Assembly: GCA_945875545.1 (NCBI GenBank)
Contig: CAMCKZ010000004.1
Location: 1 to 64,000 of the forward strand
Origin: Polyangium aurulentum
GTDB lineage: Bacteria; Myxococcota_A; Polyangia; Polyangiales; Polyangiaceae
Length of the DNA: 64,000 nucleotides
Reading direction: 5' to 3'
The notes under the pieces are model-generated. The model did not search any database and was not told the DNA's origin. It saw only the letters and a program-made list of their open reading frames with translations. Positions 12,065 to 62,800 of this stretch are shown one piece after another; within the stretch, counting starts at the first letter, position 1, and every line of letters starts with the position of its first letter. Both the position numbers and the translations under genes were made by a program.

Positions 12065-13795
12065 ATGAGAGAATCGGCGCTGTCTGTTCACCCGCAGGCC
12101 CCCGCGAACGATACGATGGCGCCCGTGACGGCTTCAATCGACAAACTTCTTGCCACCGTCGGCCTCAATGCCGAGGAAATTCCTTCGCGCGAGGGTTGGA
12201 AGCGCCTGCTCGCGCTGCTCTCGGAAAGGCTCGCCGGCGACGACGTTTTTTGGACTGCGATCGACGCCTCGGAAAGCGCGAATCGTCTGAAGACGGAGTT
12301 CTTGGGGGTGATGTCGCACGAGCTCCGAACGCCGCTCAACGGAATGCTCGGAATGGCCCAACTGCTGCGCGATACCGAGCTCGATGAAGAGCGCCGCGAC
12401 TGGGTCGAAACGATTCTCACCTCCGGCGACAGCCTCTTGACCGTCGTCAATGCGATCCTGGATTTTTCCAAACTTGAGGCCGGCAGCCTCGCCCTGGTCG
12501 ACGGCATCACGGGCCCCCGAACGCTGGCGTTCGACACCATGCAACTCTTTGCGGCCACCGCTCACCAGAAGGGCCTGCGCCTCTGCACCGTGGTGGAATC
12601 CGATGTCCCCGATACGGCCGGGGGCGATGATCGGCGCATTCGCCAAGTGCTCGCGAACATCGTCGACAACGCCATCAAGTTCACGGATGAAGGTCACATT
12701 GTTCTCCACGTTCGAACCGTGCACGCGGAGAACCAACATTCACTTTGGTTCGACATCACCGACACCGGCATCGGCATCGAGCCCGAGGTTCATGGGCATA
12801 TTTTTGACTCGTTTGTTCAAGTCGACGCTTCAGAGACGCGACGCTTTGGCGGCACGGGGCTTGGCCTCGCGATAGCAAAACGCCTCGCAAACCTGATGCA
12901 CGGAGAGATTTCGTTCGTCTCTACATTCGGCAGCGGTTCAACGTTTTCGTTTGAGGTCCCCTTGCGCTCCTACGACGAGGACGAAGCCCGTGCACCGGCC
13001 CACAGTTCCCTGCGCGTCCTGCTCATCGAGGGCGTTGAAACCGTTGCCGCGGCCCATCGCACGCTCCTGACGCAGCTCGGTCTTTCCGTGCACACTGCAC
13101 AGACTTTGGACGGGGCAAAAGCGGCTCTTGCCGCCACCCCCAACGCCTTCGATTTGCTGTTGCTCGACGGCTCTGGAAACATCGATGCAGCGGTCGAACT
13201 TTGCGAGGCCCTGGCGATGGTTCCTTCGAGTCCCCCCGCTTTCGTGCTTGCCCCGTCGGGGCACTGTGCGCCGGCCACGCGCACGGATCGCGCGAAAATC
13301 GCGGTGATCGTGCATGGCCCCCTCCGGCCCGAGCACCTGCCGCGCATCGAACTGGCAGCGGATGGTGTTCGCTCGACCCTCGGGCAAATGATCGCATCGA
13401 GCAAAGAGCCATTGGGTGCCCGAAAGCGCCGGGCCCTCGTCGTCGAAGACAACGCGATCAATCAACGCGTGGCAGTGCGCACCTTGGAGCGCCTGGGCCT
13501 CGAAGCGGAAGCCGTCGGCAATGGGCGCGATGCCCTCGTGCGTCTAAGTCAAGACTCGTTCGATGTAGTCTTCATGGATTGCCAACTGCCCATCATGAAC
13601 GGATTTGAGGCCACGCGGCGCTTTCGGCAAGCGGAGCCCGAGGGTCGCCACACCCCGGTCATCGCGATGACCGCGCAGGCAATGCCCGGCGACCGCGAAC
13701 GTTGCATCGGGGCCGGAATGGACGACTACGTGTCGAAGCCTTTGCGCCTGGGAGATCTCGAACAAAAGCTCGTGCAGTGGGTCTCGAACGCGTAG
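12065..13795 (+). CDS. Cytoplasmic hybrid histidine kinase with two receiver domains
   Basis: The 576-residue protein has no membrane segment. HisKA is at about 70-140 with phosphoacceptor His85 in MSHELRTPLNG. HATPase follows at about 185-300 with N box (NIVDNAIKF), DTGIGI and GGTGLGL, so the kinase appears intact. The first receiver (about 316-425) is degenerate: the acidic pair is reduced to Glu322 and the conserved Lys is not found, although Asp368 remains. The second receiver (about 456-572) is canonical with VVEDN, Asp505 in FMDCQLP and the Lys in SKPL. There is no HPt or output domain, so phosphotransfer to another protein is expected. ATG 12116 is an alternative start. Confidence 0.88.
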   Translation: MRESALSVHPQAPANDTMAPVTASIDKLLATVGLNAEEIPSREGWKRLLALLSERLAGDDVFWTAIDASESANRLKTEFLGVMSHELRTPLNGMLGMAQLLRDTELDEERRDWVETILTSGDSLLTVVNAILDFSKLEAGSLALVDGITGPRTLAFDTMQLFAATAHQKGLRLCTVVESDVPDTAGGDDRRIRQVLANIVDNAIKFTDEGHIVLHVRTVHAENQHSLWFDITDTGIGIEPEVHGHIFDSFVQVDASETRRFGGTGLGLAIAKRLANLMHGEISFVSTFGSGSTFSFEVPLRSYDEDEARAPAHSSLRVLLIEGVETVAAAHRTLLTQLGLSVHTAQTLDGAKAALAATPNAFDLLLLDGSGNIDAAVELCEALAMVPSSPPAFVLAPSGHCAPATRTDRAKIAVIVHGPLRPEHLPRIELAADGVRSTLGQMIASSKEPLGARKRRALVVEDNAINQRVAVRTLERLGLEAEAVGNGRDALVRLSQDSFDVVFMDCQLPIMNGFEATRRFRQAEPEGRHTPVIAMTAQAMPGDRERCIGAGMDDYVSKPLRLGDLEQKLVQWVSNA

Positions 13796-18588: not shown

Positions 18589-18774
18589 ATGGTTGAGGCT
18601 CAGAGTCCCCACAAACAAACCCCGTCCGCGTCCGCCGCCCAATTCTCGGTGGGGTTGGCGGGTTTGGTGATGGCAACTTTTGTGGCGAGCGGGTCTTTTG
18701 TTGCGCTCTCGATGGCGACTGCCCGCCACGCCGCACCCGCGGCTAGCCCGGCGTTTGTCAGGCCGATTCCTTGA
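18589..18774 (+). CDS. Small single-span membrane protein
   Basis: This 61-residue product has a polar N-terminus, one hydrophobic segment (about 19-44, Val/Ala/Gly-rich) and a short Pro/Ala-rich tail. I recognise no family. The ATG at 18589 was chosen because the upstream extension to 18421 runs into the yifB start region. The stop overlaps the TTG start of the next gene by 4 bases (TTGA), suggesting a co-translated first cistron of the sensor operon. It might be a small partner of the membrane sensor that follows. Confidence 0.55.
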   Translation: MVEAQSPHKQTPSASAAQFSVGLAGLVMATFVASGSFVALSMATARHAAPAASPAFVRPIP

Positions 18775-21700
18775 TCCCGGCCCTGGCCCTCGGGCTCTCG
18801 CGGCGACTGCTCGCGGTCGGCATTCTCATGACCGCGTTCGCACTCTTGGGCTGCGTGGTTGAGGGCCGCGATCTCGTGCCGGCGACCGATGGAGAAATGG
18901 ACCTGCGCGCCTGGGACGCTGAGCACCACGGGCCCGTCGAGCTCCGCGGCCTGTGGCGCTTTCGCGAAAATACCCTCAACGTCGACGACCTCGAAACCGG
19001 TCCCTTTGGCCATCTCGCGGTGCCTTTTAGCGCCCAACCCTCCCGCACGTCCGCGAACGAGGCGGTGCCCGTGGCAGGCTTCGGCGTAGCCCACATGCGT
19101 GTGCTCTTGCCGCCAGTGCCCCCGCCCGAGGGTGACATTACCATATATTTACCATACGTATACACTTCAGCCGAGTGGCATGTACGCATCGATCACGGCG
19201 ACGAACGCGGTCTCGAGGTCGTTCGCAACGTCGGCCGCGTTTCGACGTCCGCGGTCGGTGCGATTTTTCAGTGGAGACCCGTCTTTGTGAGTCTGCCCGT
19301 GCCTCGCGGCGGTGGCACGTTGCATGTGCGCGTAGCCCTCAGCAACTACGCCCACGCGCGCTTCGGAATGTGGTCGACGCCGGTCATCGGAACCGCGAAC
19401 GACGTCACCTCCATGCGGGTGGCCGAGGCGGGCGGCGAGTTCATTCTCATCGGTCTTTTGCTCATCACCGCCATTCATCACTTTATGATTTTTGCCCTTC
19501 GGCGAACAGAAATGGAACCCCTCTGGTTCGGCCTCTTCTGCGGCGTTGTTGCCCTGCGAACGATCTCATTGCGGTATGCCATACAAGATATTGCACCCAC
19601 CATTGACACATACAACGTATTGATGCGCATCGAGTACGGGGCTGTGGCTTTTGCGCCCATCTTTTGTACCCTGCTGGTCGATAGCCTCGTCGGTGGCCTC
19701 CCGCGCTTTCCGCGCAACATGCTGTTGGGTGGCCAGCTCACGCTCAGCATTTGCTCGGCTGTCTTGCCCGCCGCGATTGTGACCGGGCCCGTGCTCAACG
19801 CCTCCCAACTGCTCATTCTTCCAGGCGGCGTGCTCGTGGTCTTGGGCCTTGCGCGCGCCTGGTCCCAGCGGCGTTCGCGCGAATCGATCATCGTCCTCGG
19901 GGGCTACCTCCTGATGGTGCTGTGCGGCGTCAGCGATATCCTCTCCAGCCTGCATATTTTGCACGCGCCGCTGCTAACGAGCTGGGGTCTCGCGGGCGTC
20001 GTTCTCTCGCAAACCTTCGTTCTCGCGCGGCGAAATGAGCAGGCCCGCGACCGATCCGAAGACTTGCTCGAAGCCCTCACCGCCCAGTCGATGGAGCTTG
20101 AGCGAAAGAACGCCGACCTCGCCCGGGTCGACGCGCAAAAAGACGAGTTTCTTGCCAATACTTCGCACGAACTTCGCACCCCCCTCAACGGCATCATCGG
20201 CCTCACCGAAGCCATGCTCGATGGCAGTGCGGGGCCCATTCCGCCGCAAGCCTCCCAGCAACTGCAGCTCGTCGTTGGTGCCGGACGGCGCCTCGCGGCC
20301 CTCGTCGACGACGTTTTGGACTTTGCCAAACTGCGGCACCACGCCTTGGAGCTACGCCGCGAACCGACCAATGTTCATCTGCACATCGACCTCACGCTGC
20401 AACTCACGCGCCCGCTCTTGAAGACCGATCGGGTGATCTTGCGGAGCGAAGTGACTGGCAATCTGCCCCCCGTGGACGCCGATCCCAATCGTCTCCAGCA
20501 GGTTCTTTTGAACCTCGTCGGCAATGCTGCAAAATACACGCATGATGGCGAGATCGTCGTTCGCACGCGGCACGATGGCGACATGGTGGTGGTGACCATC
20601 GACGACACGGGGATCGGCATCGACGACGACAAACTCGAGCATATTTTCGAGTCTTTTCGCCAAGGAGACGGAGGCATCGCCCGGCGCTACGGGGGCACGG
20701 GGCTCGGCCTCACCATCGCTCGAGAGCTCGTGCAGCTTCACGGCGGAACCATAACGGTGACGTCGAACGCCGGGCGCGGCAGTCGCTTTTCCTTTTCGAT
20801 GCCCGTATCGACGGGAGCTGTCGATGTCAACGCGGCGGAGGCCCTACGAAGGCTCCTCGACGACCCATCGGGCAACGACGATGCGCCCGTTCCGAGCAGC
20901 ACCATGGAGGTTCCAAGTCTACGCAAGGCGCGCATTCTAGCGGTCGACGACGACGAGACAAACCTCACCGTGCTGGTCGGTCAGCTCGAGCCCGACGGCT
21001 ACGAAATTGTGACCGCGCGCGATGCCGCCGAGGCCCTCGAAAAGGTGCGCGACGGGGGCAATTTCGACCTCGCCATCATCGACGTGATGATGCCCACCAC
21101 CAGCGGTTACGAGCTGTGCAGGGCGCTTCGCGAACGCTTCGACGCCGCGGAGCTACCCATCGTTCTTTTGACCGCACGCACGCAAATGCAAGACCTCCTC
21201 GAAGGCTTCAGCGCGGGTGCCAGCGACTACCTTCACAAGCCGTTTTCGAAGCGCGAACTTCGAGCCCGCGTGGAGGCCCATCTGCACGTCGTCCGGGCCA
21301 GCGCAGCTTACGGAAAGTTCGTTCCGCGCCAAGTCCTGGAACTGCTCGGGCGCACCCCTCAAGACCTTCGCCTCGGCGATTCGGTCAGTCGCACGGCCAC
21401 GATTGTGGTCTTCGATTTCGCGAGTCTCACGGGCTTCGGCGACGACGAGGCGTCCGAAGAAACGATCGCAAAACTCAATCAATTTTTTGCAACGTCCAGT
21501 CATCGCATTCGGGCCGCCGGCGGCGTTCTTCACGGCCGAACGAGCCACGCGATGACCGTAATTTTTCCGTCCGATCCCCTCGCTGCTGTCACAAGCGCCG
21601 CACGAATTGTTCGCGATCACGGTTCGGCCCAGCCCATATTTGCTGGCATTCACCACGGCGAAGCGATCGTCGCGGCGGTCGGCGCCGACGGCCACATCGA

Positions 21701-22130
21701 GACCTCACTCCTCGGCGAAACGGAGCGAATCGCATCGCGCCTTTTGGGTCTCACGCGCGTATTCGGGTCGAGTGTGCTGATCAGCGATGCGCTGTTCGTC
21801 GCGCTCCCCGGCGACAACGGGCTCGCTCTGCGCAAGCTTGGTCGCGTCCAAACAAAAGTCCGCCCCGAGGCCACGGTGTTTCACGAAGTGCTCGACGCGG
21901 ATGACGTGGCCCATCGCTTCCCGAAAATGCAAATGGGCGACGCATTTGCCCAAGCACTGGGAGCGTATTCCCTCGCCGAATTTGAGCGCGCAGCCTCGCT
22001 CTTTGGTGCGATTGTCGACCGAAATCCGAACGATGCCGCCGCTGAATTCTACCGCGATCTTTCGGCGGCTTACCTCAAAGAGGGACCCCATTCGGGCTTT
22101 GAGGGTGAGGTCGTGTTCGATGTTCTTTGA
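18771..22130 (+). CDS. 7TM hybrid sensor kinase with receiver and degenerate cyclase domain
   Basis: The 1119-residue protein starts at TTG (4-base overlap). A signal peptide with lipobox FALLGC (Cys28) is followed by a periplasmic 7TMR-DISM-type beta domain (about 45-215), seven membrane segments (about 222-420) and a coiled coil (about 423-455). HisKA has His466 in TSHELRTPLNG; HATPase (about 565-680) has all boxes (LVGNAAKY, DDTGIGI, GGTGLGL). The receiver (about 720-840) has Asp771. The class III cyclase-like domain (about 875-1035) keeps Asp882, but the second metal Asp is His926, the substrate-binding Lys is Gly922 and the transition-state Asn is Arg986. It is therefore probably inactive as a cyclase. 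A TPR-like tail closes the protein. Confidence 0.9.
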   Translation: MIPALALGLSRRLLAVGILMTAFALLGCVVEGRDLVPATDGEMDLRAWDAEHHGPVELRGLWRFRENTLNVDDLETGPFGHLAVPFSAQPSRTSANEAVPVAGFGVAHMRVLLPPVPPPEGDITIYLPYVYTSAEWHVRIDHGDERGLEVVRNVGRVSTSAVGAIFQWRPVFVSLPVPRGGGTLHVRVALSNYAHARFGMWSTPVIGTANDVTSMRVAEAGGEFILIGLLLITAIHHFMIFALRRTEMEPLWFGLFCGVVALRTISLRYAIQDIAPTIDTYNVLMRIEYGAVAFAPIFCTLLVDSLVGGLPRFPRNMLLGGQLTLSICSAVLPAAIVTGPVLNASQLLILPGGVLVVLGLARAWSQRRSRESIIVLGGYLLMVLCGVSDILSSLHILHAPLLTSWGLAGVVLSQTFVLARRNEQARDRSEDLLEALTAQSMELERKNADLARVDAQKDEFLANTSHELRTPLNGIIGLTEAMLDGSAGPIPPQASQQLQLVVGAGRRLAALVDDVLDFAKLRHHALELRREPTNVHLHIDLTLQLTRPLLKTDRVILRSEVTGNLPPVDADPNRLQQVLLNLVGNAAKYTHDGEIVVRTRHDGDMVVVTIDDTGIGIDDDKLEHIFESFRQGDGGIARRYGGTGLGLTIARELVQLHGGTITVTSNAGRGSRFSFSMPVSTGAVDVNAAEALRRLLDDPSGNDDAPVPSSTMEVPSLRKARILAVDDDETNLTVLVGQLEPDGYEIVTARDAAEALEKVRDGGNFDLAIIDVMMPTTSGYELCRALRERFDAAELPIVLLTARTQMQDLLEGFSAGASDYLHKPFSKRELRARVEAHLHVVRASAAYGKFVPRQVLELLGRTPQDLRLGDSVSRTATIVVFDFASLTGFGDDEASEETIAKLNQFFATSSHRIRAAGGVLHGRTSHAMTVIFPSDPLAAVTSAARIVRDHGSAQPIFAGIHHGEAIVAAVGADGHIETSLLGETERIASRLLGLTRVFGSSVLISDALFVALPGDNGLALRKLGRVQTKVRPEATVFHEVLDADDVAHRFPKMQMGDAFAQALGAYSLAEFERAASLFGAIVDRNPNDAAAEFYRDLSAAYLKEGPHSGFEGEVVFDVL

Positions 22131-22160
22131 CAAAGCCCCGTGCACGTTATTTGGTGAGGA

Positions 22161-24746
22161 ATGCTCACATGGGTTGTGCCAACGGCACTGGCCTTGGCCG
22201 TGGTTTTCGCAGCGACGGCGGTGATCGCCGCATGGCGATGGAGAGGCATCGCCCTCGACAACACACGCAACGACCCTGCGGTCCGCGAGGCCAACGATCG
22301 GTGCGCCGCGCTCGAACAACTGCATGCGGCAAGCGCAGCTCGGGCGACCGAGGTGCTTGCAGAGCGCAGTTACCTGGAGCGGCAGTGCGCAGAACTCGCG
22401 GAGCGCGTGAGCCAGAACCTCGTCACCCTCAAGCAACAAGACGACTTCTATCGGCACACGTCTGACGAGCTGCACGTGCCGGTCGCCGCGATGGTGGGTA
22501 TCGCCGAGGGGCTCGCTGAGAAATCGCGTGCCAAGTACGATCGAAGGTTCACCCACGATTTGCTCCTCGTGGCCAGCACCGGCAAGAGGCTGATGGCCAT
22601 GCTCGCGAACGTCGTCGATTTCGCTGCCTTGCGTCTGGGCACCATCGCCCTCGAGAGGCGCGCCATCGATCTGCATTCGCTTGTGAACGTCGTCCTCACC
22701 ATGCTGGGCCCGGCGATCAGTGAAAAACGGGTCACCGTATCGAACGACGTCCCGCCAGATTTGTACGCCCTCTTCGCCGACGAACTTCGGGTCCAGCAAG
22801 TCCTCGTGAGCTTGCTCGGCAATGCCATTCGCGTGAGCGCCTCGGGAACGGTCGTCGTTCGCGCAACGATCGCCGCGAGCGACATCGATCTCTTGATCGC
22901 CGACAGCGGTGCCGGCCTGCGTCCGCGAGCCCTCCGCGCGCTTTTGGATCCGCACGTGGAGCTCTCCGCCGAACCCGATTTGGAGGTCCGCACGAGCGGC
23001 CTCGGCGTGCGCGTTTGCAAGCAACTCATCGAGCTTCACGGCGGCCTATTTCTGGCCTCGTCCACCGTTGGCGAGGGGAGTGTTTTTGGGTTCCGTTTGC
23101 CGTGGACGGCAGATGCCGCGAGCGGCTCCGTTTCGTCGTCGTCGCGCACGCATTCCGATGGCGGCGAAGGCGACGTCAGCAGCCGTGCCGCAACCCTGGC
23201 AGCCATGCTCGCCGCGAACAGCATGCCGCTCGAATCCTCGCCGGACAGCAGCCCCACCCAGGTGTTCGTGGGAGTCCCAAGACCCGGGGCCGCCGTGACC
23301 TTTCGGCTAAATTCTCCAATGGTTCCGAGTATTTCGCTGACCGCCGATCCCGAACCCGATTCGATCGCGGCACCGCCTCAACGCCCGACGGCCCCACCGA
23401 GCGGCGGTTTTATCGCGGCCAAACCGCTCTACCCCCCCGAGTCACCCATCCCCGCGTCGCCGCGCATGCCGTCGAGCATTCGGGTGCCTCCGTCGGGCCG
23501 GGGTTTGCGCCGCTACAGCGCGCTCATCGCCGACGACGAAGCCATCAACCTTTCTCTCCTTACGCAGCAACTTGAGGGCATGAATCTCCGGGTCACCCAG
23601 GCGAGCGACGGCGCGACGGCGTGGGATTTGTTCCAAAAAGAGGGCCCGTTTGATGTCGTGCTTCTCGACGTCGTGATGCCCAAAATGAACGGCTACGAGG
23701 TTTGCCGCCTCATTCGTACCCGCTTTACCGCGGCCGCCGTGCCCGTCGTCATGCTGACGGGCAAACACGATGCGCGGGAGTTTGTGCAGGGGTTTGAGGC
23801 GGGTGCCAACGATTTTGTGACGAAGCCCTTCGCGAAAAAAGAACTCACGATGCGCGTCGGCATGCATCTCGGCATCGCCAAAACCAACGAAGCCCTCGGG
23901 CGGTTTGTGCCCCGTCACTTCTTGGAACTCCTCGGGCGCGAAGCCATCATCGACGTGCAGCTCGGCGATCAGGTGGAGCGCACGATTCCAGTGCTTTTCG
24001 GCGATGTGCGGGGCTTCACCCCGATAGCGGAGGCCATCGGAAGCGCCGAGACTTTCGCGTTTCTCAACTCACTTCTGTCGCGCATTGGGCCTGCGATTCG
24101 CCACCAAGGAGGCTTCATCGACAAGTACATCGGTGACGCATTCATGGCTCTTTTTCCGTCCTCGATCGACGGAGCAGTACGCGCCTGTGTCGCCATTCAG
24201 CGCGAGATCGACGGCTTCAACGCAGCGGGCCTCGCGCCCCTCGGCAAGCCTGTATCGCTGGGTCTCGGTCTCCACGTGGGCCCCATGCGCCTCGGCACCA
24301 TCGGCGAGCATGAGCGCTTTGAAGCCACCGTGATCAGCGACGCTGTGAACCTCGCGTCGCGACTGGAGTCCCTCACAAAAGTTTTTGGCGTGCGCGCGAT
24401 CGTCACCGAGAACGTCATTTCTGCGGCCGCCGGCACCTACGAAGTCCGTCACCTCGGCGCGGTGCGGGTTCGAGGCAAGCTTCACTCCGTGGGAGTCTTC
24501 GACCTTGTCGCCTGCGACGACGAGGAGGCCCGTGAACTCAAATGCATGACGCGCGGGCGTTTCGAAGAGGGCGTTTTTGCCTTTGCCGGGGGCAAGTTTG
24601 CCGCCTCGACAGAAGCCTTCGAAAGCGTCTTGATCGAAGACCCCAGCGACGTCGCCGCGCGGTATTATCTTCGACTGCTCGCCGATTTCCATCTCAACGG
24701 CCCGCCCGCCGATTTTGACGGCACCCTCGTTTTTTTGGCCAAGTGA
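22161..24746 (+). CDS. Pseudo-histidine-kinase with receiver and intact class III cyclase
   Basis: The 861-residue protein has one N-terminal membrane segment (about 5-26) and a coiled coil (about 45-95). The HisKA-like region has Asp102 instead of the phosphoacceptor His (TSDELHVPV where the neighbour has TSHELRTPL). A weak HATPase-like domain follows (about 205-315; ADSGAGL, SGLGVRV). After a Ser/Pro-rich linker (about 320-450) comes a receiver (about 452-570, Asp503 in LLDVVMP). The class III nucleotidyl cyclase domain (about 605-770) has Asp615, Lys655, Asp659, Asn730 and Arg734 all in place. The receiver, cyclase and TPR-like tail are homologous to those of the preceding protein. I expect a cAMP- or cGMP-forming enzyme regulated through its receiver. 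Confidence 0.9.
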   Translation: MLTWVVPTALALAVVFAATAVIAAWRWRGIALDNTRNDPAVREANDRCAALEQLHAASAARATEVLAERSYLERQCAELAERVSQNLVTLKQQDDFYRHTSDELHVPVAAMVGIAEGLAEKSRAKYDRRFTHDLLLVASTGKRLMAMLANVVDFAALRLGTIALERRAIDLHSLVNVVLTMLGPAISEKRVTVSNDVPPDLYALFADELRVQQVLVSLLGNAIRVSASGTVVVRATIAASDIDLLIADSGAGLRPRALRALLDPHVELSAEPDLEVRTSGLGVRVCKQLIELHGGLFLASSTVGEGSVFGFRLPWTADAASGSVSSSSRTHSDGGEGDVSSRAATLAAMLAANSMPLESSPDSSPTQVFVGVPRPGAAVTFRLNSPMVPSISLTADPEPDSIAAPPQRPTAPPSGGFIAAKPLYPPESPIPASPRMPSSIRVPPSGRGLRRYSALIADDEAINLSLLTQQLEGMNLRVTQASDGATAWDLFQKEGPFDVVLLDVVMPKMNGYEVCRLIRTRFTAAAVPVVMLTGKHDAREFVQGFEAGANDFVTKPFAKKELTMRVGMHLGIAKTNEALGRFVPRHFLELLGREAIIDVQLGDQVERTIPVLFGDVRGFTPIAEAIGSAETFAFLNSLLSRIGPAIRHQGGFIDKYIGDAFMALFPSSIDGAVRACVAIQREIDGFNAAGLAPLGKPVSLGLGLHVGPMRLGTIGEHERFEATVISDAVNLASRLESLTKVFGVRAIVTENVISAAAGTYEVRHLGAVRVRGKLHSVGVFDLVACDDEEARELKCMTRGRFEEGVFAFAGGKFAASTEAFESVLIEDPSDVAARYYLRLLADFHLNGPPADFDGTLVFLAK

Positions 24747-47839: not shown

Positions 47840-50800
47840 CTATTTGGAAGTGCGACGTTTCTCCGCATTGATGGCAATATCGACGCGTCGGTCAATTTCG
47901 CCGGCGCGCGCGCGATCCGCACCAAACCCGACGGCCATAAAGCGAAACTCGTCGAACCCTCTTCTGCCGAGCCATTTCACGACGGCTCGCGCGCGCTTCA
48001 TGCTCAACTCGCGCCGTAGCAAGCGCGTACCCGCTTCGTCCGCGTGGCCCTCAACACGGTACCGAAATCGACTCGGGAGCCGCTCCAGCACGAGCGCAAT
48101 TCGCTCCAATGCCACCGCCGCGCCGCCAAGAATCTCAGCGTTTCCGCTGGCAAACATCACAGGTTCGAGGGCAATGGCGGCCCCTTGCACGGCCCCAATC
48201 CGGCAGCCATTTCGATTGGGATCAAGACTCCGCACACCCGGTTCGTCCGGGCACGCGTCTACCGTGTCGTCGATTCCGTCGCCATCCGGGTCCCGCGCTG
48301 GTTCGGGGCAGCCGTTCCGGTCGTCGTCGGTGGCCACGCCGGACTCCAGCGGGCATCGGTCCGTGTCGTCGGAAACGCCGTCCGCGTCCGCATCGGGTGC
48401 CGGTGGCGGGCAGCCGTTTTTCATCGGGTCCTCGCTGGGGACACCGGCCTCCGCGGGACACGCATCGCGCGTGTCGTCGACGCCGTCAATGTCCGTGTCG
48501 ACGGTGACCACGGTGAAGGGACAGCCGTTTTTCTCCGGCTCCTGGCTCGGAACGCCGCCTACGTCGGGGCACGCGTCGAACTCGTCGGGAACATTGTCCC
48601 CGTCGCCGTCCGGCGGCGGCGGGAGAGGCGCCCAGCGGAGATTCACCAGGCCGCGGAAGGCGGGCACGCCGTAGGCAGGCAGCAACCCTCGCCCAGCACC
48701 CACCGAAATCCGGGCTCTTCCCAAAGAATACGTCAATGCGCCAATAACCTCTAAACCCGTCAGCGGCTCGCTTTTCGTATCTATGTCGAATTTAGAGGTT
48801 TGACCTCCGACGCTGCCCTCGAGCCCAAAGCCATTGCCCGTGCCAAACCGGTACGCCGCGGCCGCGCGGTAGACGACGACATCGTCTTTGGGAATTCGCG
48901 AGGAAGAGGTACCGAGGCGCCAACGGATCGCGAGGTTTGCCGCCAATCGAACGGGCCCGAGCGTCGACGAAGCGAGGACCTCCGACTCCAACACCGGAAC
49001 ACCCTCGCCGTTGAACGCCAGGGTATTGCCAGTCGGCAGGGTAAAAGAGGCGATCGCACCAAACCCGATGGGACACTCGTCGTCGCGGCAGGCAACATAC
49101 TTGGCAGCCATTCGTATGTCGCCCAAACCGGTCGGATTCGTCGGCTCCGCTGCAAATCCACCGAAATCGGGCAGCGATCCATTGCTCCGGGTGAGACCCG
49201 TAATAACCGGCGCGCTCAGGCCGACCTCGAGCAGCCAGATCGGCATCGACATGCTCAACGTGGCGGTCTGGCGCTGGTCGACGAGAACCATGTACCCCCG
49301 AAGCTGGCCGTCGATCAGCTTTTCAAGCTGCATCGCACCCTGGGTCTGCATCATGTGGAGGGAAAAGTCGAACCACTTTGAAGTCCGTGCGGTCTCAACA
49401 TCGAGAATGCCCTCCGCATCGAGGGGAACACGGTAGGTTTCCGCATCAAATCCGCCTTCTTCCTCGCGCGGAATCGCCTGCGTGCCCGCCGCCACGGCCC
49501 GGGCCGTCAGTGCCGCGGCCAAGCCCAATCGCCGCACGCGCGAACGCCGCAGCAGCAGGCCCAGGGCGAAAACGGCCCCCAGCGCCCCACCTTGCGCCGG
49601 CGCAGGACGCCCGGCAATCGTGGAACACGTCAGCCCATCGGTGCGAACGCGGTAGCCGTCGTTAAGGCCCTCGCCCGTCGAGTCGACCTGCAAATAGTCA
49701 GGAATCCCGTCTCCGTTGGTGTCCACGAGAACACCGTTTGGAGCTTCTACCGCGTCGGGGATTTCATCGTTATCTGAATCGCGGTCTTGAAAGTTTGGAA
49801 TGCCGTCGCCGTCGGTGTCTCGAATTCCATAATTGGTGTTCGGTTGATCAACGCTGGATTCGAGGCCATTGCAAAACCCATTAGCACCGAATGCGTTCGC
49901 CGCCGCATCACCCTGCACCCTTAGACCCGTGCCGTTTTCGCCATCTCGTGCGTAATCGTGGCCCGCTTCCAGGACATCTGGCAAGCCATCTTGGTCGGAA
50001 TCATAGTCACGAAAGTCGCGGAACCCGTCGTCATCGCTGTCGGCGACCTCGCCCTGCGGCGAGCGCTCGTCCGTGTCTCGAATTCCGTCGTTATCGCTGT
50101 CGTAGTCGAGAATGTCGGGAATACCGTCTCCGTCAAAGTCCGTGCAGTCGAGCAGCCCGTCGCCGTCGAAGTCCAGCAGCGGATGGGCTGTGTCGCCCGT
50201 CTCGGGATCCCGCTCGTCGTCGTCGAGCACGCCGTCGTCGTCCGAGTCTTCATCCACGAAATCGGGGCTTCCGTCGCCGTCCGTGTCGCGGGGTGACACG
50301 CCATTCGAGCCGACCCGTTTGAACGCCGGTCCCTCAAACGCATCGGGCATTCCGTCGCTGTCGCAGTCCACGTTGCGGAAACAAGGCTCTTGCGAGCGAT
50401 CCCCAAACGCCGCCACGCTCGCCGGCAGACCCTGTTTTCGGGGATCGTGTTCTACTTTATCTCCGAGCCCATCTTGGTCCGAGTCGAGATCGCGGTAATC
50501 CGGGGAATGGTCGCAATCGAAGTCTTCTGGCTCTGAATCCAGCGTACTCGCCGTGCAACCGGGTTTACGCTCGCTGTGATCGGCCCTAACCGCAACCTTG
50601 ATGCCCTCGAGTTTATCGCCAATCCCGTCAGCGTCGGAGTCCGTGTCACGGAAATCCCGAACCTTGTCGCCGTCGAAGTCCTCGAGCCGCGCTGCCTGCG
50701 TGCCGAGAACGTCTGGAGTCGTCGGATCGAGAGCCTGAACGAGGCCGCGCGCCCCGATGACTCCAGAAATTCGCCCGGTTGCGGCGTCAATGGCCGGAGG

Positions 50801-53800
50801 GTCCTTGAACGCCTCGCGGGCGTCCAAAATGCCGTCGTTGTCGCTGTCCACGTCGCGGTAGTCCGGAAGCCCTTCCGAATCGCCGTCCGTGTCCTGGGGC
50901 GGATCGGACAAGCGCCCAGCAACGACGGTTCCCTCGGGCCGGCGTTCGATAATATCTAGAATTCCGTCGTTATCGCTATCGATATCCACGAAGTCCGGAT
51001 GGCTGTCCCCATCGCTGTCCACGGGGTCATCGTAGGTCGACTGATCCGAGCCGAGCAGGCTGAGCGTCCGCTCCACCGAGTCCAAGATCTCGTCGCCGTC
51101 CGAGTCATTGTCTCTAAAATTCGCGATTCCATCCTTATCAAAGTCCGAGGGCGGCTGGTGTGCGGCGACCCGCGCTTCCAGCGCATCCAATATTCCGTCG
51201 TTATCTGAGTCCTTTTCGAGGTAATCCGGCGTCGTGTCCGTGTCCGTATCGACAAGGGTATTCGCGGCGATCCCGCTCTCGGCGGCCGTTTCAAGCCCAT
51301 CCACGAACCCATTCAGGCCCCCGTCGGCGGTCAGTTTCCCATCGACCGCAGCGCCCGTTTTCTCCAATGGGTACGCTTCGTAAACGTCGTCGATCGTGTC
51401 GCCGTCGCTGTCCGTATCCCGGAAGTCCGGGCCCCCGTCGCCGTCCGTGTCGACGCCCGTGGCCACGCCCCCGCGTTCCGTCGCATCGCGAATTCCGTCG
51501 TTATCCGAATCCAAATCGCGGAAATCGTAGACCAAATCGCCGTCCGTGTCGGCGGGTACACCCGCCACGGCGGGGAGACCTTCGTACGCATCCACTATGC
51601 CGTCGTTATCGCTATCCAGGTCGCGGTAATCCGGGGTCAAGTCCTTGTCTGCGTCCCGCGGCACGGGCTGCCCGAGCAGCAGCCCCGCCTCGTAAAAGTC
51701 GCTAATTCCGTCGTTATCCGAATCCGAGTCTCGGTAGTCGGGAACGCTGTCCGCGTCCGAGTCAAACGGCGCCGTGACGATGACCTGTGGGCCTACATTT
51801 TCAATTGAATCCAAAATACCATCGTCATCGCTGTCGGTATCGCGGTAATCCGGGAGACCAGTGCCGTCCGTATTCACGGGTATCGCGTGTAGAACCGCGA
51901 CGGTTCCAATGTGCGACTCCACCGAGTCAGGAATACCGTCATTGTCTGCGTCGTCGTCACGGAAGTCCATGACCCCGTCCGCATCCGAGTCGCCCGGCCA
52001 GCCATCCGCGGCCGGCAGGTTTTCCACGATGTCGTCAATCCCGTCATTGTCACTGTCCAGGTCCAGGACGTCCGGGCCACCCGTACCGTCCGTATTGGCG
52101 AGGGTGTACGTAACAGTCCCGGGCCGTGATGGGTTCTCCAGGATGTCGGCCAAGCCATTCGTCCCGCCTGGCGCCACAAGAATGCCGCCCACAACCAGTG
52201 CATGGTCTACGAGGAAGCCCGCTTCGTACGCGTCGCCGATGCCGTCACCATCCGAGTCCAAATCGAGGTAGTCCGCTTCCCCATCGCCGTCCGTGTTGAC
52301 CGGCGCTCCATAGGATGCCGCGCCGCCACGCTCCTGATCGTCGGGAATTCCGTCGCTATCGCTGTCGAGATCGTTGTAATTGGCCAACCCGTCACCGTCG
52401 CGGTCGTCGGGAATACCCGTGACAGACACGCCCGCCATGACACCGAACGCGCCAAGAGTGGCGACGACTTTTCCGTCGGTTACGTTGCTCCGGGGAACGT
52501 TTTTCGCCTCAATGGCATCGTAAATCCCATCCGCGTCCGAGTCCAAATCACGGTAGTCCGCAACGCCGTCCGCATCCCAATCGAACGGCAGAACAAAGGC
52601 AGTCGGCGGGTTCGCCCGGTCCGCCGGAATGACCCGTTCCACCCCGTCACCAATTCCGTCGTTATCGCTGTCACGGTCAAGAAAGTCGAGGATGCCGTCT
52701 GCGTCCGTGTCGGCCTTGATGTAGTTGAGAACCGCGGAATCATCAATTGTTTCAAGGGCATTGGTGAGTCCGTTGGCGCCCACAGCCCCGACCATACGCC
52801 CGTTTGCGTCGACCGGCACCAATCGAGTCACCTGCGCTTCGTAGGCATCGGCGATGCCGTCGTCGTCGGAATCCAAGTCTCTAACGTCCGGAACGCCCGC
52901 GGCATCTCCGTCGGTATTGACAGGTATAACCGGAATGCCTCGTTCGTCTTTATCGAGGAGGCCGTCGCCGTCCGAATCCAGGTCGCGGTAGTCTCGAATG
53001 CCGTCGCCGTCCGTGTCAAGAACCGCCGCCTTCTGCACGCCGGAATCTACCGAGGTTTCCAGCGCGTCGGCGTAGCCGTTCCAGCCACTCGTCCCGGTGA
53101 TAACGCCGGCCGTCACGGTCGTTGAATACGGCGCGCCGGACTCGTAAATATCGAATATCCCGTCGCCATCTGAATCCGTATCGATGTAATCAGCGGCCTT
53201 GTCACCGTCGGTATCCGGAAACTTGCCGTCGACAATTCCTTTAATTTCTTCTCTATCCAGAATACCATCGTTGTCCGAGTCGATATCCAGAAAGTCCTCG
53301 ACGACGTCTTGGGGAGCGTCGCTATTTCGCAGAGTGTACTTGGCGGCCGCGTCAAATGCGTCCGCGTCTTCCAGCGAATCGAGCATGCCGTCGCGGCCAA
53401 CCCCCGCCGTAGCCGACACTTTCACGCGGCCATCGGCCTCGATGGGTGCGGCGTGGCCGGCTTCCTGGCTGTCAAACGCGCCATCGTCGTCGCTGTCGAG
53501 GTCCCGGTAGTCAGGCTTTCCCTCGACGTCATTCCTATCGGTATTGGTCGGGGCGGTTTCAATAGAAAGGCCCGCGAGCGCCTTTCCGCGTTCAACGGCA
53601 TCCAGGATACCATCGTTATCGCTGTCCCGGTCGCGGAAGTCCGGGATTCCGTCGTAATCCGTATCGACCTTCTGCCCATCCGCGGAAATATATTCAATTT
53701 TATCGGCAATGGCGTCATTGTCTGAATCCGTGTCCCTTAGGTCAGGAATGCCGTCGCCGTCGGTGTCAACCAGCGCCGCGTAGATGTCCGTCGTGGCGGT

Positions 53801-56800
53801 ACCGGTCGAGCGCTCTTGGATGTCTTCGGCACCGTCGCCATCGCTGTCTCTGTCGACGTAATCCGGAAGGAGGTCGCCGTCTGTATCGCCAACACCGTTC
53901 GTCAACGCCAATTCGCGGCGCTCGAGGGAGTCGGCGACCGCATCGCCGTCCGAGTTCGTGTCGCGAAAGTCAAAAATCAGGTCGCTGTCCTGGTCTCTTA
54001 GGGGCACGCGAGGGAGCCGCGAATACAGCGCAGGGCCAGTGGTTCCGGTGGCGGCGGCCTTTAGTTCGTTCACAAAGCCGTCTTCGCCGACCGTTCCCAC
54101 CGCTTGCCCGGCCGACTGCGGCACGCCGTCGGAGCTACCCACACGATTAGCGAGACCGCGGGTGTACCCGGCCTCAATTGCATCGAAAATGCCATCGCCG
54201 TCCGAGTCAAGGTCGAGGTAATCGGGGCCGGCGGCGCCGCCCGAGTCCACCGGTGACGCAACCGCAAGACCGACCTCGGTCGAATCCAGTATCCCGTCGC
54301 CGTCACTGTCGCGGTCTAGGTAGTTCGGGTAGCTGTCCCCATCCGTATCGACGAAGCGCCCGAGGGGCGCCTCGATTTCGTCCGGTATCGTATCGTTGTC
54401 GGAATCAGTGTCCAGAAAGTTCGGCAAGTCGTCGTGATCATTGTTTTTCTTTGGACTAAAAACCATGGGGCCGAAGAGAGTCGAGTTGTTCTCGTCGAGA
54501 TCGGAAATGGTATCGCCGTCGCTATCGAGGTCCAAGTAGTTGGGCACGCGATCCAAATCGGGATCACCGCCGCCCTCATCGAGATCAGATATTCCGTCGT
54601 TATCGCTATCAGGGTCGAGATAATTCTTAATCGTGTCGCTGTCGTTGTCCAGATAGCCCTCGAGTTTATCCGAAATTCCGTCGCCGTCCGAGTCCTGGTC
54701 CAGGTAGTTGGGCGTCCCGTCGCCGTCCGAATCGAGAGGCGCGCCGTTGGCGGCATTGCCCTTTTCTACCTCATCCGGTATCAGGTCATCGTCCGCATCG
54801 AGGTCAAGGTAGTCAGAAAGCCCGGTGCCGTCGGTGTTTGCAATGGTGTAGTTCGAATCGCCCGAGTCAACGGGGGTTTCCAGAGCATTGGCAAAACCAT
54901 TGGTTCCGTTAACCGCGCCGGCCAGCATTCCTGTCGCGAGGCATGTGGCTGCGCACTGGCCGTGGCCCGCCTCGATTGCATCAAAAATGCCGTCGCCATC
55001 GCTGTCCATGTCAACATAGTTCGCCTGGCCGTCCGCATTCCAATCTTGTGCTGTTTCGTCGATATCGCGAATTCCGTCGTTATCGGAGTCGAAATCCCTG
55101 GCGTTGATAATCCCGTCGAGATCGGAATCGGCCGGCGATCCGGCGGACCCGAACTCCGTGTAGTCGCTAATGCCGTCGCGGTCGCTGTCCGTGTCTCGGC
55201 AATCGGGAAGGAGGTCGCCGTCGGTGTTTCGAAGGATTGTGTGGGTGACGTCGTTGTCGGGCCAGGCCTCGAAGCTGTCGAGCATCCGGTCATTGTCCGA
55301 GTCCGTATCGAGGTAATCCGGCACGCCGTCATCTGCCCCGCCGGCGATAAAATCGGTGTTCGTTTGCGCGGAAGACGTTCCCAGTTCCATGCGCGTGGGA
55401 ATCGTATCCCCGTCATCGTCGTCGTCTCGGTAGTTGGCAAACCCATCGCGGTCCGAATCGAGCGGGGTATTGGGATCGAATGCCTCGATGCGGTCGCTAA
55501 GCGAGTCCGCGTCGCTGTCGAGATCGCGGTAATCGGGAACCGTGTCGCCATCGCTGTCACGCGGCGTGGCGACGCCAGCACCCGTGACGCGGCCGTCAGC
55601 ACCGACAGCACCAATCGTGCGACCGCTGCTCTGGCCCAAGGTTTGCCCTGATTCGACCGCATCCCAAATGGTGTCGCCGTCGCTGTCGACGTCCATGTAG
55701 TCCGGGTCCGCCGTCCCGCCGGAATTCAGCGGCTGGTTCACGTCCAGACCGACCTCTTGGCTATCGAGAATCCCGTCGTTGTCCGAATCGCGGTCCAAAT
55801 AGTTCGGGTATTGGTCCGAATCGCTGTCGATTACGCTCGCAGCGGCACCCTGCTCGACCGCATCGGGAATCGTATCGCCGTCGCTATCCGTATCCAAATA
55901 ATTTGGAATGGTATCCGCATCCGCGTCTTGCGGCAGCACGGTCGCACCGCGTTCCCGGCTGTCCAGAACTCCGTCGGCGTCCGAGTCCGTGTCGCGAACG
56001 TCGGCGGCTCCGTCGTTATCGCTGTCATTTACATTGTAAGTAGGCGCGGACGTGTAGGTGTCGCCGGATTCGAGATTGTTGCAATACCCATTAATTCCGA
56101 ACCCGCCACACAAAGCCAGCGTGCAGATGCCCGATACTTTACCTAGCGCGTGCCCCGCTTCAATGGCGTCGAGGATTCCATCGTTGTCTGAGTCGGTGTC
56201 ACGGTAATCCGGAACATCCAGCCCGTCGGTATTAAGAATCAAACCCGGCGTCGTCAGGAGGCTAGCGAGGGTTGCGGCGCCCTTCTCCGTGGCGTCGAGT
56301 ATGCCGTCATTGTCCGAGTCACGGTCCAATACGTCTTTAATCCCGTCCGCGTCCGTATCGACCAGCTGACTGCCGGTCCCGCGCTCAATGCTATCGGGAA
56401 TTCCGTCGCCATCGCTGTCGAGGGAGCGAAACGTGGTGACGCCGTTAACGCCGACGAAAACCGTGTAGTTCGTGCTGCCGGGGCCTGTGGTGCCTTGGAC
56501 CGAGCTGCCGAGTCCGGAGGAGTTGACCCCGGAACTGAGCTGCCCGCGGCTGTCGAACGCCTGGCCGTGGCCGGCCTCCGCCGCGTCGAATGCGCCGTCG
56601 CCATCCGAGTCCAAATCCAGGTAATCCGGGAGCCCGTCCCCGTCGAGGTCTGCCACCTCGCCGCCGCCGCCGAGTTCGACCGCGGTCAAAAGGCCATCGT
56701 TGTCGTCGTCGATGTCCCTAAAGTCCGTGATGCCGTCGCCGTCCGTATCGCGAACCTGGAAACCGGGGCCGCCGCCATCGAGCGCGCCGACCTCGACCGC

Positions 56801-59800
56801 ATCCGGCAGGCCGTTCGCACCAACAGCACCGGAAACGCGGCCCGAGACAGACGTCTTGCCGTGACCGGCTTCTATGGCATCAAGAACGCCGTCACCATCC
56901 GTATCGAGGTCACGAAAGTCGGGGGTGCCGTCGAGGTCGGAGTCGGCCGGCGCGTATTTAGCCAGCCCGGAATCCGCGATCGTTTCGATGGAATCTGCCG
57001 CGCCATTCGCGCCGCGCGCGCCCGAGACCACTCCTCCAACCACCCCCACGACGGAAGGAAATCCGGCCTCGACGGCATCCACGATCCCGTCGTTGTCCGA
57101 GTCCAAGTCCCGCAGGTCGGGAATGAGGTCCGCGTCCGTATCGACCGGTGCGGAAAGAGCGCCGGTCAGACTCGCTTCGACCGAATCCAAGAGTCCGTCG
57201 TTGTCCGAGTCCCGGTCCAAGTAATCGGCCAATGTGTCGCCGTCCGAGTTGACCACAATCGCCGTGCCCACTCCGGATTCGGCCGCGGTCTCGACCCCAT
57301 CGACCAGGCCGTTGGCGCCACGGGCACCGTCAACTTTGCCCGCAACGACCATTCCGTTATGAATACTTTCGTATGCATCTGCCACGGTGTCGTTATCGCT
57401 GTCGGCGTCCAAATAGTTCGGAATCCCGTCGGCGTCCGCGTCGTCCGGCGTAGAAAACGCTGCGTTTACGCGCTCAATATCGTCGGTGATGGCGTCGTCG
57501 TCCGAGTCCCTGTCTCGGTAATTCTTAACCCCGTCGCCGTCCGTATCGACGAGCGTATAGACCTCAATCGCCGAATAGCTATCGCCCCCGCCGACCGTAA
57601 GGGAATTCAGAAACCCATCGGCACCGAATGAATCCGCTCCGGCCGCGGTAACCCCGCCCGACGCGATCCCAAGGGCAGGAAAGACGGTTCGTGCGCCCGA
57701 TTCAAGCGCGTCGTAGATGCCGTCGGCGTCGCTGTCCCTGTCCTTGTAGTCGGCCAGACCGTCCGAGTCGCTGTCCACGGGCGTGCCCCAAGGCCCGGTG
57801 ATTCGCGCTTCCGTCGCGTCGAGAATCCCGTCTTGGTCCGAATCTCGGTCATACGCATCGGCCAGGTTGTCGCTGTCGGTGTCCGCGGCAAGCGTCTTTT
57901 GGATGCGTGAATCCGGGCTACTTTCCAGCGAATCCACAAAGCCGTTGGTACCCCGAGCCGCAGATGCGACGATGCGGCCCGACGACAACGCGGCCCCATG
58001 GCCTGCCTCGATGGCGTCCGCAATCAAATCGGCGTCGCTGTCCAGGTCGCGGTAGTCGGGAGTTCCGTCCGAATCCGTATCTTTTGGTGCAGTGAGCGCC
58101 ACCGATTGCCGGTATTCGGTGGCATCGGACAATCCGTCGTCGTCCGAGTCCGCGTCGAGGTAATCTGCGGCCCCGTCGCCGTCGGTGTTCTTTAGTACGA
58201 AATCAACGGTGGTGGGGTCACCCGGAACGACCACACTCGCGGGAATACCCGTCAATGCGACGGCGCCCGTTAGAACGCCCGCCGACACCGCGGCCAGATG
58301 GCCTGCCTCGTACGTGTCACCGATGCCGTCGCCGTCGCTGTCGAGGTCGAGGTAGTCCGGCGCTGCGTCACCGTCGCTGTCGACAGGTGCAATACGTACC
58401 AAACCCGAGTCCGTGACGGTTTCGACCGAATCTGGCACGCCATTGGCACCAACGGCCCCATCGACCCGTCCGCCGCGCAAAACGGCCCCATGCCCAGCCT
58501 CTAGGGCATCGGGAATACCGTCGTTATCGCTGTCAAGGTCGCGCTGGTTCGAGACGCCGTCGTTGTCCGTATCGAGGAGGGAAAACGTTGCGGTGCGCTC
58601 GCTGGAGTCCAGGATTCCGTCGTTATCGCTGTCAAGATCCCGGTAGTCCGGAAGGCTGTCCGCGTCGGTATTCGCGAGCGTGAAGGCGTTAGCCGCGAGG
58701 ATTTTGACGCCATTCCCGTTGACGCCGCCGTTAACGATGCCGCTTGTCGCCGCTGCCCCGTGGCCGGCTTCCGCCGCGTCATAGAGTCCGTCGGCGTCGC
58801 TGTCGAGATCCAGAAAGTCCGGCAGCGAATCGCCGTCGGTATTGCGAAAGTTTGCGCCGTTGGAGGTCTCGATGGCGTCGGTGATTCCATCATTGTCGGA
58901 ATCCAAATCGCCAAAATCGGGAACCCCATCGAGGTCAATATCGCTCAGCGCGTACCCACCCAGCGCCGAAATGGCGACTGGAATTCCCCTGCCGTCCACC
59001 AACCCGGTCACCCGCCCGCGGCTATCGACGGTTCGTGTGTGTCCCGCTTCAATCGCATCAAAAATCCCGTCTTCATCGCTGTCCGAGTCCACGTAATTTG
59101 GCGCATCGTCGCCATCGGGATTCGCGCTGCCCTCAACGAGGTCCGAAATGCCATCGTTGTCCGAATCTGAATCGAGATAATTGGCAATCCCATCGCCATC
59201 CGTGTCGGCGATGCCCTCGGTCAGCGTCGTCAGCAGGTCGCCGTCGTCGTCCGAATCGATGTAGTTCGCCCGGCCGTCGAGGTCCGTGTCTCGGGGCGTG
59301 TAGGTGGACGCTGCGCGATAGCCGTCACCGCCAACTTCCAAACTATCCAAATAGCCGTCTAGGCTTACGGCACCACTCACAACACCCAACGAGTTGGTCG
59401 TCTCCCCGTGCCCGGCCTCTACGCCGTCCGGCACCCCGTCTTGGTCGGAATCCAGATCCCTGCAATTCGGCTTACCATCCACGTCGGTGTCCACGAGCGT
59501 TTCGACGCTATCCAAAATACCATCGTTATCGCTATCCCGATCCAGGTAATCCGCGATGCCATCGCCGTCCGTCTGGACGAGCACCACGGTGCCGATTGCC
59601 GCGTAAGTATCGCCACTTTCAGCGCTATTGAGGAGGCCGTTGAGGCCGACCTCGCCTGTAACCGCGCCCGTCGTGCTGCTGATCGCAAAACGGTGGCCCG
59701 CCTCTGTTGCATCAAAAATGCCGTCTTCGTCACTGTCGGTGTCAAGAAAATTGGGGCGTCCGTCCCCATCGGCATCCGCGGGAGTCGCGCCGCCGCCAGA

Positions 59801-62800
59801 TTCAACCGAATCGGAGATTCCGTCATTATCCGAATCGAGGTCGCGGCAATTTGCAAACGTATCACTGTCTGCGTCCGCAGCGCCCTCTAGGAGCGTGGCA
59901 ATTCCGTCGTTATCGTCGTCCGGGTCGAGGTAATCGAGTAGCGCGTCGCTATCAGTATTACGTAGCGCATATGATATAACCGTGGCGTAGGTGTCCGCGC
60001 CGGCACCGGCGGCCTCAAGGGCGTTCACAAGCCCATTGGTGCCCACGTCTCCGGCGACGCGGCCAGCGCTCAAGACGAGGCCTGTTAGAGCGAAACCAGC
60101 CTCTTCGGCATCATAAATGCCGTCGGCATCCGAATCGAGATCCAGGTAATTCGCTTTGGTGTCGTTGTCCTGGTCGTCGGTGCCCTCTCTCTCATCAAGG
60201 ATACCATCGTTATCGGAATCGAGGTCTCGGTTGTTGTTAATGCCGTCGCCGTCCTGATCCGCAGCCGTCTCCGAGGACGAGGCAATCGTATCGTTGTCGT
60301 CGTCCGGGTCCGCGTAGTCCGCAGCCGCATCGCCGTCGGTGTTACGAGGTGTGTAGTTCGAGGCCGCCGCGTACGTATCCTGGGTCTCGAGGGAATCAAG
60401 GTAGCCGTCTTGGCCGACCGATTCGGTCACGCGCCCGGCGGCGTTGATGACCTTGCGGTGGTTGGCCTCGGTCGCGTCAAAGATGCCGTCTTGGTCCGAG
60501 TCCAGGTCCAAGAAGTCCGGGGTTTGGTCGCCGTCGGTGTCGATGTTGCGTTCGACGCTGTCGAGGATTCCGTCGTTGTCTGAATCCCGGTCGCGGCTGT
60601 TTGGAATCCCGTCGCCGTCGGGATCGCCCGCTCCGTCCGCGCCATCGGCGATTCCGTCCGCGTCCGCGTCGCCAACTTCGTAGGCTGGGATGCCACTCGC
60701 TGCGAGCACAAGCACGTAACCATTGGGCAAATTGATGACCGCAAGAGGCTGACCCTTGGCGTCAACGTCGCCGACCACGCGCCCGGCGCTTGTTACGCTC
60801 TGTCCGTGACCCGACTCAGTCGCGTCCCACAGCGAATCGGCGTCCGAGTCGAGGTCGAGGTAGTTGAAACGGCCGTCGCCGTCCGGGTCCCTCTTGCCCT
60901 CGACCAAGTCCCCGATTCCATCGTTATCGCTATCGAAATCAATGTAGTTCGGAACACCATCGAGATCGCTATCCGTCGCCGTCTCTTCGACAGACGGAAT
61001 GAGGTCCGCATCGTCGTCCGTATCGAGAAAGTTCTTAACCGAATCGGAGTCTGTGTCGCGAAGGGTCAGCGTACTCGGCGACGCGAACCCATCGACGTTG
61101 CCTTGCAACGAGTTGAGGTAGCCGTCGATCCCCATGCTGCCGGTGGTGCGTCCGAGCGAATCGATTGTCGCCGAATGACCGGCCTCCATTGCGTCAAAAA
61201 CGCCGTCCGCGTCCGAGTCAAGATCCCGGTAATTTGGCACGGAGTCGCTGTCGCGATCCGCGGCGGTTTCGAGTATATCGAGAATGCCGTCGCCGTCCGA
61301 GTCCCGGTCCAGGTAATCGGGAATGCCGTCCGCGTCCGAGCTCAGCAGCTGGCCCGCGTCCACGGCCGAATAGCCGTCTCCGCCACTCTCGGCCGCGTTC
61401 AAGAAGCCATTGCTACCGACGGCGCCCGTAACACGACCCGTACTCACGCTGTACGCGTAGCCAAGGCCTGCCTCGTACACATCGTACAGCCCATCGCCGT
61501 CACTGTCCGTATCCACGAAGTCCGGGTCACCGTCGATATCCGAGTCGCGCGGGGAGGCGCCGGTGCCGCCCTCAGCAGCGTCGCTGATTCCGTCGTTATC
61601 CGAATCCAGGTCGCGGTAATTGGGCAATGCGTCCGCGTCGAGATTGCCGTCGCCCTCCGCGAGGGTCGTGATTCCGTCGTTATCGTCGTCCGCGTCCAGG
61701 TAGTCGGCGGCGGCGTCGCCGTCGGTATTGAGGAGCGGGAGGCTGTTGGCGGCGGGGTAGCCGTCTCCCGTTTCGATCGCGTTTAGAAAGCCGTTGACTC
61801 CCACGGAGCCCGAGAGCCGTCCGCTATTTTGTGTGAGGCCGGCCAGGGGAAACCCGGCCTCGACCATGTCATACCGGCCATCGCCGTCCGAATCGAGGTC
61901 CAAGTAGTTCGGAATTCCGTCGCTATCGGTCGAAAGATTTCCCTCGGCGAGGTCACCAACGCCGTCGTTGTCCGCGTCGAGGTCGAGGTAGTTTGCGACC
62001 CCGTCACCGTCCGCGTCGGCACCGGTTTCGGTTACGGTCGTAATACCGTCGCCGTCGTCGTCGTCGTCCACGAAATTGAACTTGGCGTCGCCGTCTGTAT
62101 CTCGGGGCGTGGCCGCCGGGAGCGCCGCCGCAGAATACGAATCGCTGACCTCAAGCGCATCAAGAAACCCGTCAATACCCACGTATCCCGTGACGCGGCC
62201 AAGGGCCGAAATCGCGTAGCCGTGCCCAGCCTCCACGGCATCCAGAACGCCGTCGCCGTCCGAGTCAAGGTCAAGGAAATCCGCCGTGCCGTTTCGATTC
62301 GTATCGGTCGTTCCCTCAACCGAGTCGAGAATTCCGTCGTTATCCGAGTCACGGTCGCGGCTGTTGCCCAGTCCGTCTCCGTCCGGATCTCCGGTGCCCT
62401 CCACGCCGTCGGTGATCGAGTCGCCGTCGGAGTCGTTGCTCTCGTACGCGGGGCTGCCGCCCGTCGCAAGCAGCAGCGTATACCCATTGAGCGCGGCCAC
62501 GGCCGTCGGTCGCCCGTTGACGTCAACCCCACCAGAAACGCGGCCGCCGGACTGGGACTGACCGTGCCCAGCCTCCAATGCGTCGAAAACCGTGTCGCCG
62601 TCGGAATCGAGGTCGAGGTAATTGGGGATACCATCGGCATCAATATCCCTGGCCGCCTCCACTTGGTCGTCAATGCCGTCGTTGTCGGAATCGAGGTCGA
62701 GGTAATTGGCAATTTGATCGCTATCGGAATCGCTGCCTGTCTCCGTCAACGACAGAAGGCCATCGCCGTCGTCGTCCGAGTCAATGCAGTTAGGAAACGC

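Follow-up and report, generated by a model that had tools for sequence, protein, structure and literature searches.

Does a pair of neighbouring genes, each having lost a different half of the same signalling protein, act as one unit, or have two paralogues eroded independently? The question is raised by two adjacent genes in the window (the whole 64,000-nucleotide stretch of DNA analysed here, from a lake bacterium, Polyangium aurulentum), both encoding proteins with a kinase, a receiver and a cyclase domain. An earlier note had described the first protein, P1, as having a live-looking kinase and a degenerate cyclase, and the second, P2, as having Asp102 in place of the phosphoacceptor His and a complete set of cyclase residues. 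A motif check bore out this description, together with the ORF coordinates and every residue number named for the two proteins.

Gene order and residue states

P1 (18771..22130, + strand, 1119 aa, TTG start) and P2 (22161..24746, + strand, 861 aa) are separated by 30 nt, and the stop of P2 overlaps by 4 nt the start of a third gene, P3 (24743..28234, + strand, 1163 aa), which the earlier note had not mentioned. The P1-P2-P3 trio is present in the same order and with close spacing in both congeners, which are lake metagenome genomes assigned to an uncultured delta proteobacterium (Kiruna3_bin-1548 and ErkenSummer_bin-0132); identity to the congener orthologues was 72–74% for P1 and 69–70% for P2. 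Tight linkage in three genomes was counted in favour of a joint signalling unit. A further hybrid kinase (window 12065-13795) precedes the cluster and is kept on the cluster's contig in both congeners. On the minus strand, window 47840-63967 is open for 5375 codons, apparently a giant gene.

P1 begins with a signal/lipobox-like segment, followed by a 7TMR-DISM membrane sensor (aa 224-420), an intact kinase core from HisKA to HATPase (20136..20807, + strand, aa 456-679, assigned by Pfam and motifs), an intact receiver (20934..21275, + strand, aa 722-835; Asp771, Thr801, Lys823), a coupling helix with a pseudocyclase (21282..21965, + strand, assigned by residues, profile and fold) and a TPR-like tail. 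The phosphoacceptor His and the N, G1, F and G2 boxes that define a HisKA histidine kinase are all present: His466, the N box NAAKY at 585, Asp612 of G1 (DTGIG), the F box IFESF and the G2 box GGTGLG at 641. The catalytic class III residue set is incomplete, since the Lys has become G922, the second metal Asp H926 and the Asn R986, and the position of the adenine Asp is E983 (E, E and D across the three species). To judge by these residues the cyclase is probably dead; two catalytic residues survive, D882 (first metal Asp) and R990 (transition-state Arg). Pfam returned 7TMR-DISM, HisKA, HATPase and Response_reg on P1 and no cyclase match; despite this, the C-terminal domain is a class III cyclase by profile and predicted fold. 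Its AF2 model (pLDDT 65, moderate confidence; pTM 0.62) aligned to class III cyclases in a Foldseek search of the PDB with a probability of 1.00 and TM scores by target of up to 0.82.

P2 consists of a single N-terminal TM helix, a pseudokinase (22422..23114, + strand, approximately aa 88-318, recognised by motifs), a variable linker of 130 aa, an intact receiver (23523..23858, + strand; Asp503, Thr533, Lys555; Pfam), a coupling helix with a complete class III cyclase (23868..24560, + strand, by residues and Pfam) and a tail. In its H box, HTSDEL, Asp102 replaces the phospho-His. The earlier note was right on this residue and understated the extent of the damage: the Thr of HExxT is V106, NAxK has become NAIR, the F box is gone, and G2 reads RTSGLG for GGTGLG. 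P2 thus falls short of a HisKA histidine kinase in both the His and the ATP boxes, with a HATPase domain still detected. All residues of a class III adenylyl cyclase are there, namely the metal Asps, the Lys and Asp pair, the Asn and the Arg (D615, K655, D659, D727, N730, R734), and the K/D pair predicts ATP as the substrate. Pfam assigned Response_reg, Guanylate_cyc (8e-15) and a weaker HATPase to P2, and neither a HisKA nor a sensor domain was matched. The cyclase is homologous to the cyanobacterial CyaC adenylyl cyclases (PDB 1wc0 series). An AF2 model of the P2 kinase domain was poor (pLDDT 50) and was left out of our readings.

P3, the third gene of the cluster and conserved in both congeners, combines a 7TMR-DISM sensor and HisKA/HATPase kinase (His455), a receiver (Asp774) and a second kinase (HELNNP, His917). 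Two kinase modules thus flank the receiver, and similar double kinases adjoin kinase-receiver-cyclase genes elsewhere (for instance, G059:C1).

Conservation, recurrence and ancestry

The key losses and retentions in P1 and P2, including the replacement of His by Asp102, are invariant in all three species (the window and the two congeners), and such invariance argues for more than chance. The earlier note had named, as evidence against its reading, genomes in which both domains are intact in each protein; the congeners show the same losses and give no such refutation. Values of dN/dS, calculated by the Nei-Gojobori method and approximate at dS of about 0.6–1.7, were 0.09–0.13 for the dead cyclase of P1 against 0.09–0.11 for the live cyclase of P2, 0.13–0.21 for the P1 kinase and 0.17–0.21 for the dead P2 kinase. 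The P2 receiver is likewise under purifying selection. The dead domains of P1 and P2 are, then, maintained by purifying selection.

Besides P1 and P2, the same genome encodes about 14 proteins of kinase-receiver-cyclase type or with receiver and cyclase only. Expansion of receiver-cyclase proteins is specific to the genus, with 20 to 33 matches per genome (G000, G001, G002) versus 0–10 in other family members at E 1e-30.

Motifs were read in all kinase-receiver-cyclase proteins of the three congeneric genomes, and 28 proteins were readable in both domains. Seventeen were intact in both, six had a live kinase and dead cyclase, five a dead or eroded kinase and live cyclase, and none was dead in both. 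Ten of the 11 degenerate proteins sort into five complementary pairs of neighbours. Three of these are P1-P2, one per species; the other two are copies of a second pair, absent from the earlier note, in two of the genomes (G000:C45:6372-11632, L033; G002:C212:613-5623, L065). All five readable proteins with a dead or eroded kinase in the genus therefore have a dead-cyclase protein as neighbour, and the pairs so formed are of two unrelated kinds; when labels were assigned at random to 16 families (counted by hand), both pairs came out complementary with p of about 0.001.

The second pair has the live cyclase first, followed by the live kinase with the dead cyclase. Its pseudocyclase has lost nearly all catalytic positions (ASHEYA, AADELA) and is less constrained, with a dN/dS of 0.33. 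The kinase of the live-cyclase member in C45 is merely eroded, keeping its His with altered N, F and G2 boxes, and the receiver of that member is intact; in C212 (G002:C212:3275-5623) the His has become Arg, G2 is missing, and the damage extends to the receiver, where Thr, Lys and part of the acid pocket are gone. The eleventh degenerate protein, G002:C108:1956-5153 (L071), has a live kinase and a dead cyclase (ATEELA) and stands alone. It stops 188 bases short of the contig end, on the side expected to carry a partner, so that the gene upstream falls beyond the contig; that gene is predicted to encode a live cyclase with an eroded kinase. Collectively, the census suggests that the genus repeatedly divides the work of one sensor between two proteins.

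The two pairs differ in ancestry. P1 and P2 are 30% identical in the kinase, 43% in the receiver and 30% in the cyclase, and approximately unbiased tests neither rejected nor supported a sister relationship between them (AU p = 0.51 for kinase plus receiver, 0.74 for the receiver). An intact single-gene protein, G049:C779, is among the nearest relatives of the P1 kinase (51%) and is 48% identical to the P2 cyclase, a double similarity that is suggestive of the split ancestor supposed in the earlier note, but the backbone of the trees is poorly supported. Members of the second pair sit in different subfamilies in both the kinase plus receiver tree and the cyclase tree, and their origin as tandem duplicates of one ancestor (C45) was rejected (AU p = 2e-5, delta lnL 88.6). 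This pair was consequently assembled rather than split from one gene, and is convergent with P1-P2. The pseudocyclases of the two pairs did not match each other's profiles and lie apart in the cyclase tree, and their kinases have intact relatives among them, so the two losses look independent.

When genomes of about 85,000 species were scanned with a P1 profile, the P1 pseudocyclase was found in this genus only (in the two congeners). Profile searches of 60 family and 331 phylum genomes, together with a full reading of 40 phylum loci, yielded no other complementary pair at an E-value that distant pseudocyclases may escape. An intact kinase joined to a partly degenerate cyclase is also seen in single proteins with no partner nearby (G130:C81, first metal Asp to Asn; G219:C444, Asn to Gly), which means that degeneracy by itself is no proof of pairing.

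Coupling between the proteins

The best explanation of these data, to which we give an even chance, is that P1, P2 and P3 form one unit with divided work. P1, with P3, would sense a stimulus via 7TMR-DISM, and P1 would autophosphorylate on His466; phosphate from P1 (with P3) would pass in trans to Asp503 of the P2 receiver, which would switch the P2 cyclase through the conserved coupling helix, and the cAMP-making form would be a P2:P2 homodimer. The cyclase-like domain of P1, presumably non-catalytic and kept by selection, would probably serve in dimerisation, docking or inhibition, and the dead kinase domain of P2 would probably be a scaffold for dimerisation. Five proteins with cNMP-binding domains are encoded in the genome and could be the readers of cAMP.

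The direction of control we infer from residues: with its kinase lost, P2 has no means of phosphorylating its intact receiver, nor does it have a recognised sensor, and both sensors and intact kinases are found in P1 and P3. This makes trans-phosphorylation the simplest model and phosphotransfer from P1 to the P2 receiver plausible. As to the catalytic form, one chain of a class III dimer contributes the two metal Asps of each interface site and the other chain its Lys, Asp, Asn and Arg. Division of the site residues between chains is documented for C1/C2 (PMC6027212). In a P1:P2 dimer, site A would have the metal Asps of P2 but G, E and R at the Lys, Asp and Asn positions, and site B the Lys, Asp, Asn and Arg of P2 but D882 and H926 at the metal positions. 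With P1 deficient in each half-site, neither P1:P2 site is complete and P2:P2 alone is, making the P2 homodimer the probable enzyme.

Phosphotransfer of this kind has precedents. In algal 2c-Cyclops, phosphotransfer from the fused kinase to the receiver keeps the cyclase active (PMC6284317), and the His of the hybrid kinase GacS phosphorylates the receiver of its kinase-dead partner RetS (PMC5992135). Against the best explanation, P1 has an intact receiver of its own, which may be the sole target of its phosphate, and P3 alone could be the kinase of P2. Furthermore, the broken receiver of the C212 live-cyclase member means that phosphotransfer is not the general reason for pairing and argues, at least for that pair, for coupling through contact instead.

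Contact is central to a doubtful but serious alternative, a regulatory hetero-oligomer in which the P1 pseudocyclase and the P2 cyclase would form a dead dimer, P1 would inhibit P2 under signal control or be an allosteric scaffold in a larger complex, and phosphorylation of the P1 receiver would free P2 to homodimerise. No stretch shared by P1 and P2 is better conserved than the coupling helix (FVPR..LEL.GR...LGD), the P1 pseudocyclase retains the class III fold under strong purifying selection, and in the second pair a live cyclase with eroded kinase and receiver still adjoins a dead-cyclase kinase. In trypanosomes, cyclases carrying mutations in one metal Asp and in the transition-state Arg behave as dominant negatives (ESAG4, PMC6027212). 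Such an oligomer would, however, join cyclase domains that are just 30% identical and needs no intact P2 receiver, yet that receiver is intact and under purifying selection; the weaker constraint on the pseudocyclase of the second pair also counts against it.

Ordinary erosion, in which the neighbours lost domains independently and are uncoupled, with P1 serving another partner and P2 an orphan cyclase, we consider unlikely. The large family of kinase-receiver-cyclase paralogues in the genus and the lone degenerate cyclases of G130:C81 and G219:C444 are what it would lead one to expect; it fits poorly with the adjacency of every dead- or eroded-kinase protein to a dead-cyclase protein, with residue states fixed in three species and with a dN/dS of about 0.1 in the dead cyclase of P1. 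A productive heterodimer sharing an active site in the manner of mammalian C1/C2 is highly improbable: the two genes are linked, their products have the domain in common and obligate heterodimeric cyclases are known (NeoR/RGC, PMC7655827), but P1 fails both half-sites (K to G and N to R on one side, metal D to H on the other), the dead cyclase of the second pair has hardly a catalytic position left, and P2 by itself has every residue needed, so that a C1/C2-type enzyme was rejected on residues. Of what the earlier note proposed, the division of labour between a signal-receiving kinase and a cAMP-producing partner is supported, by three species, purifying selection and the second pair, and a catalytically productive heterodimer is not.

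Known systems and biological meaning

Kinase, receiver and class III cyclase in this order, with His-to-Asp transfer controlling the cyclase, are also found in algal 2c-Cyclop1. 2c-Cyclop1 is one polypeptide with all domains active, an opsin input and guanylyl cyclase activity (PMC6284317), whereas the losses in P1 and P2 are complementary, spread over two proteins, and the cyclase is predicted to be an adenylyl cyclase. CyaC is a receiver-coupled sensor cyclase, a single protein in which kinase and cyclase are both active; its cyclase resembles that of P2 by homology and that of P1 in fold. Cop5/HKR1 and Vop5 resemble P1 in having a kinase, a receiver and a cyclase without metal Asp, substrate and transition-state residues, and differ in their rhodopsin input; the parts of the source available to us describe no adjacent partner with a dead kinase and a live cyclase (PMC7693036). 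GacS, RetS and LadS show hybrid kinases acting on each other, with the receiver of a kinase-dead hybrid being given phosphate (PMC5992135, PMC4866733), but RetS keeps its His and an HExxT phosphatase motif, a cyclase is absent and the genes are not a complementary adjacent pair. In NeoR/RGC two paralogous sensor cyclases make one unit whose light-activated function requires heterodimerisation (PMC7655827), while P1 cannot complete either site. In the open-access literature, to which our search was largely confined (most subscription papers lay outside it), we found no description of a complementary kinase/cyclase pair.

The arrangement is real, conserved and recurrent, and it is built from components, and points to a general mechanism, of known kinds. 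Tentatively, and with more doubt than confidence, we propose that the genus has built a two-protein sensor cyclase from kinase-receiver-cyclase genes at least twice, convergently, with kinase and conserved pseudocyclase in one subunit and cyclase and pseudokinase in the other. The dead domains, far from being relics, would be the interface that ties the two into an obligate pair, and the pseudocyclase would inhibit or scaffold the live cyclase under control of the signal. Pseudoenzymes of bacterial signalling are usually found singly and are hard to match with a partner; here the dead and live halves lie side by side, mirror each other, do not vary between the species and occur more than once, which offers a direct test of how dead kinases and cyclases gain regulatory roles. 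Pairs of the P1-P2 type also bear on how a one-protein sensor becomes a two-protein sensor.
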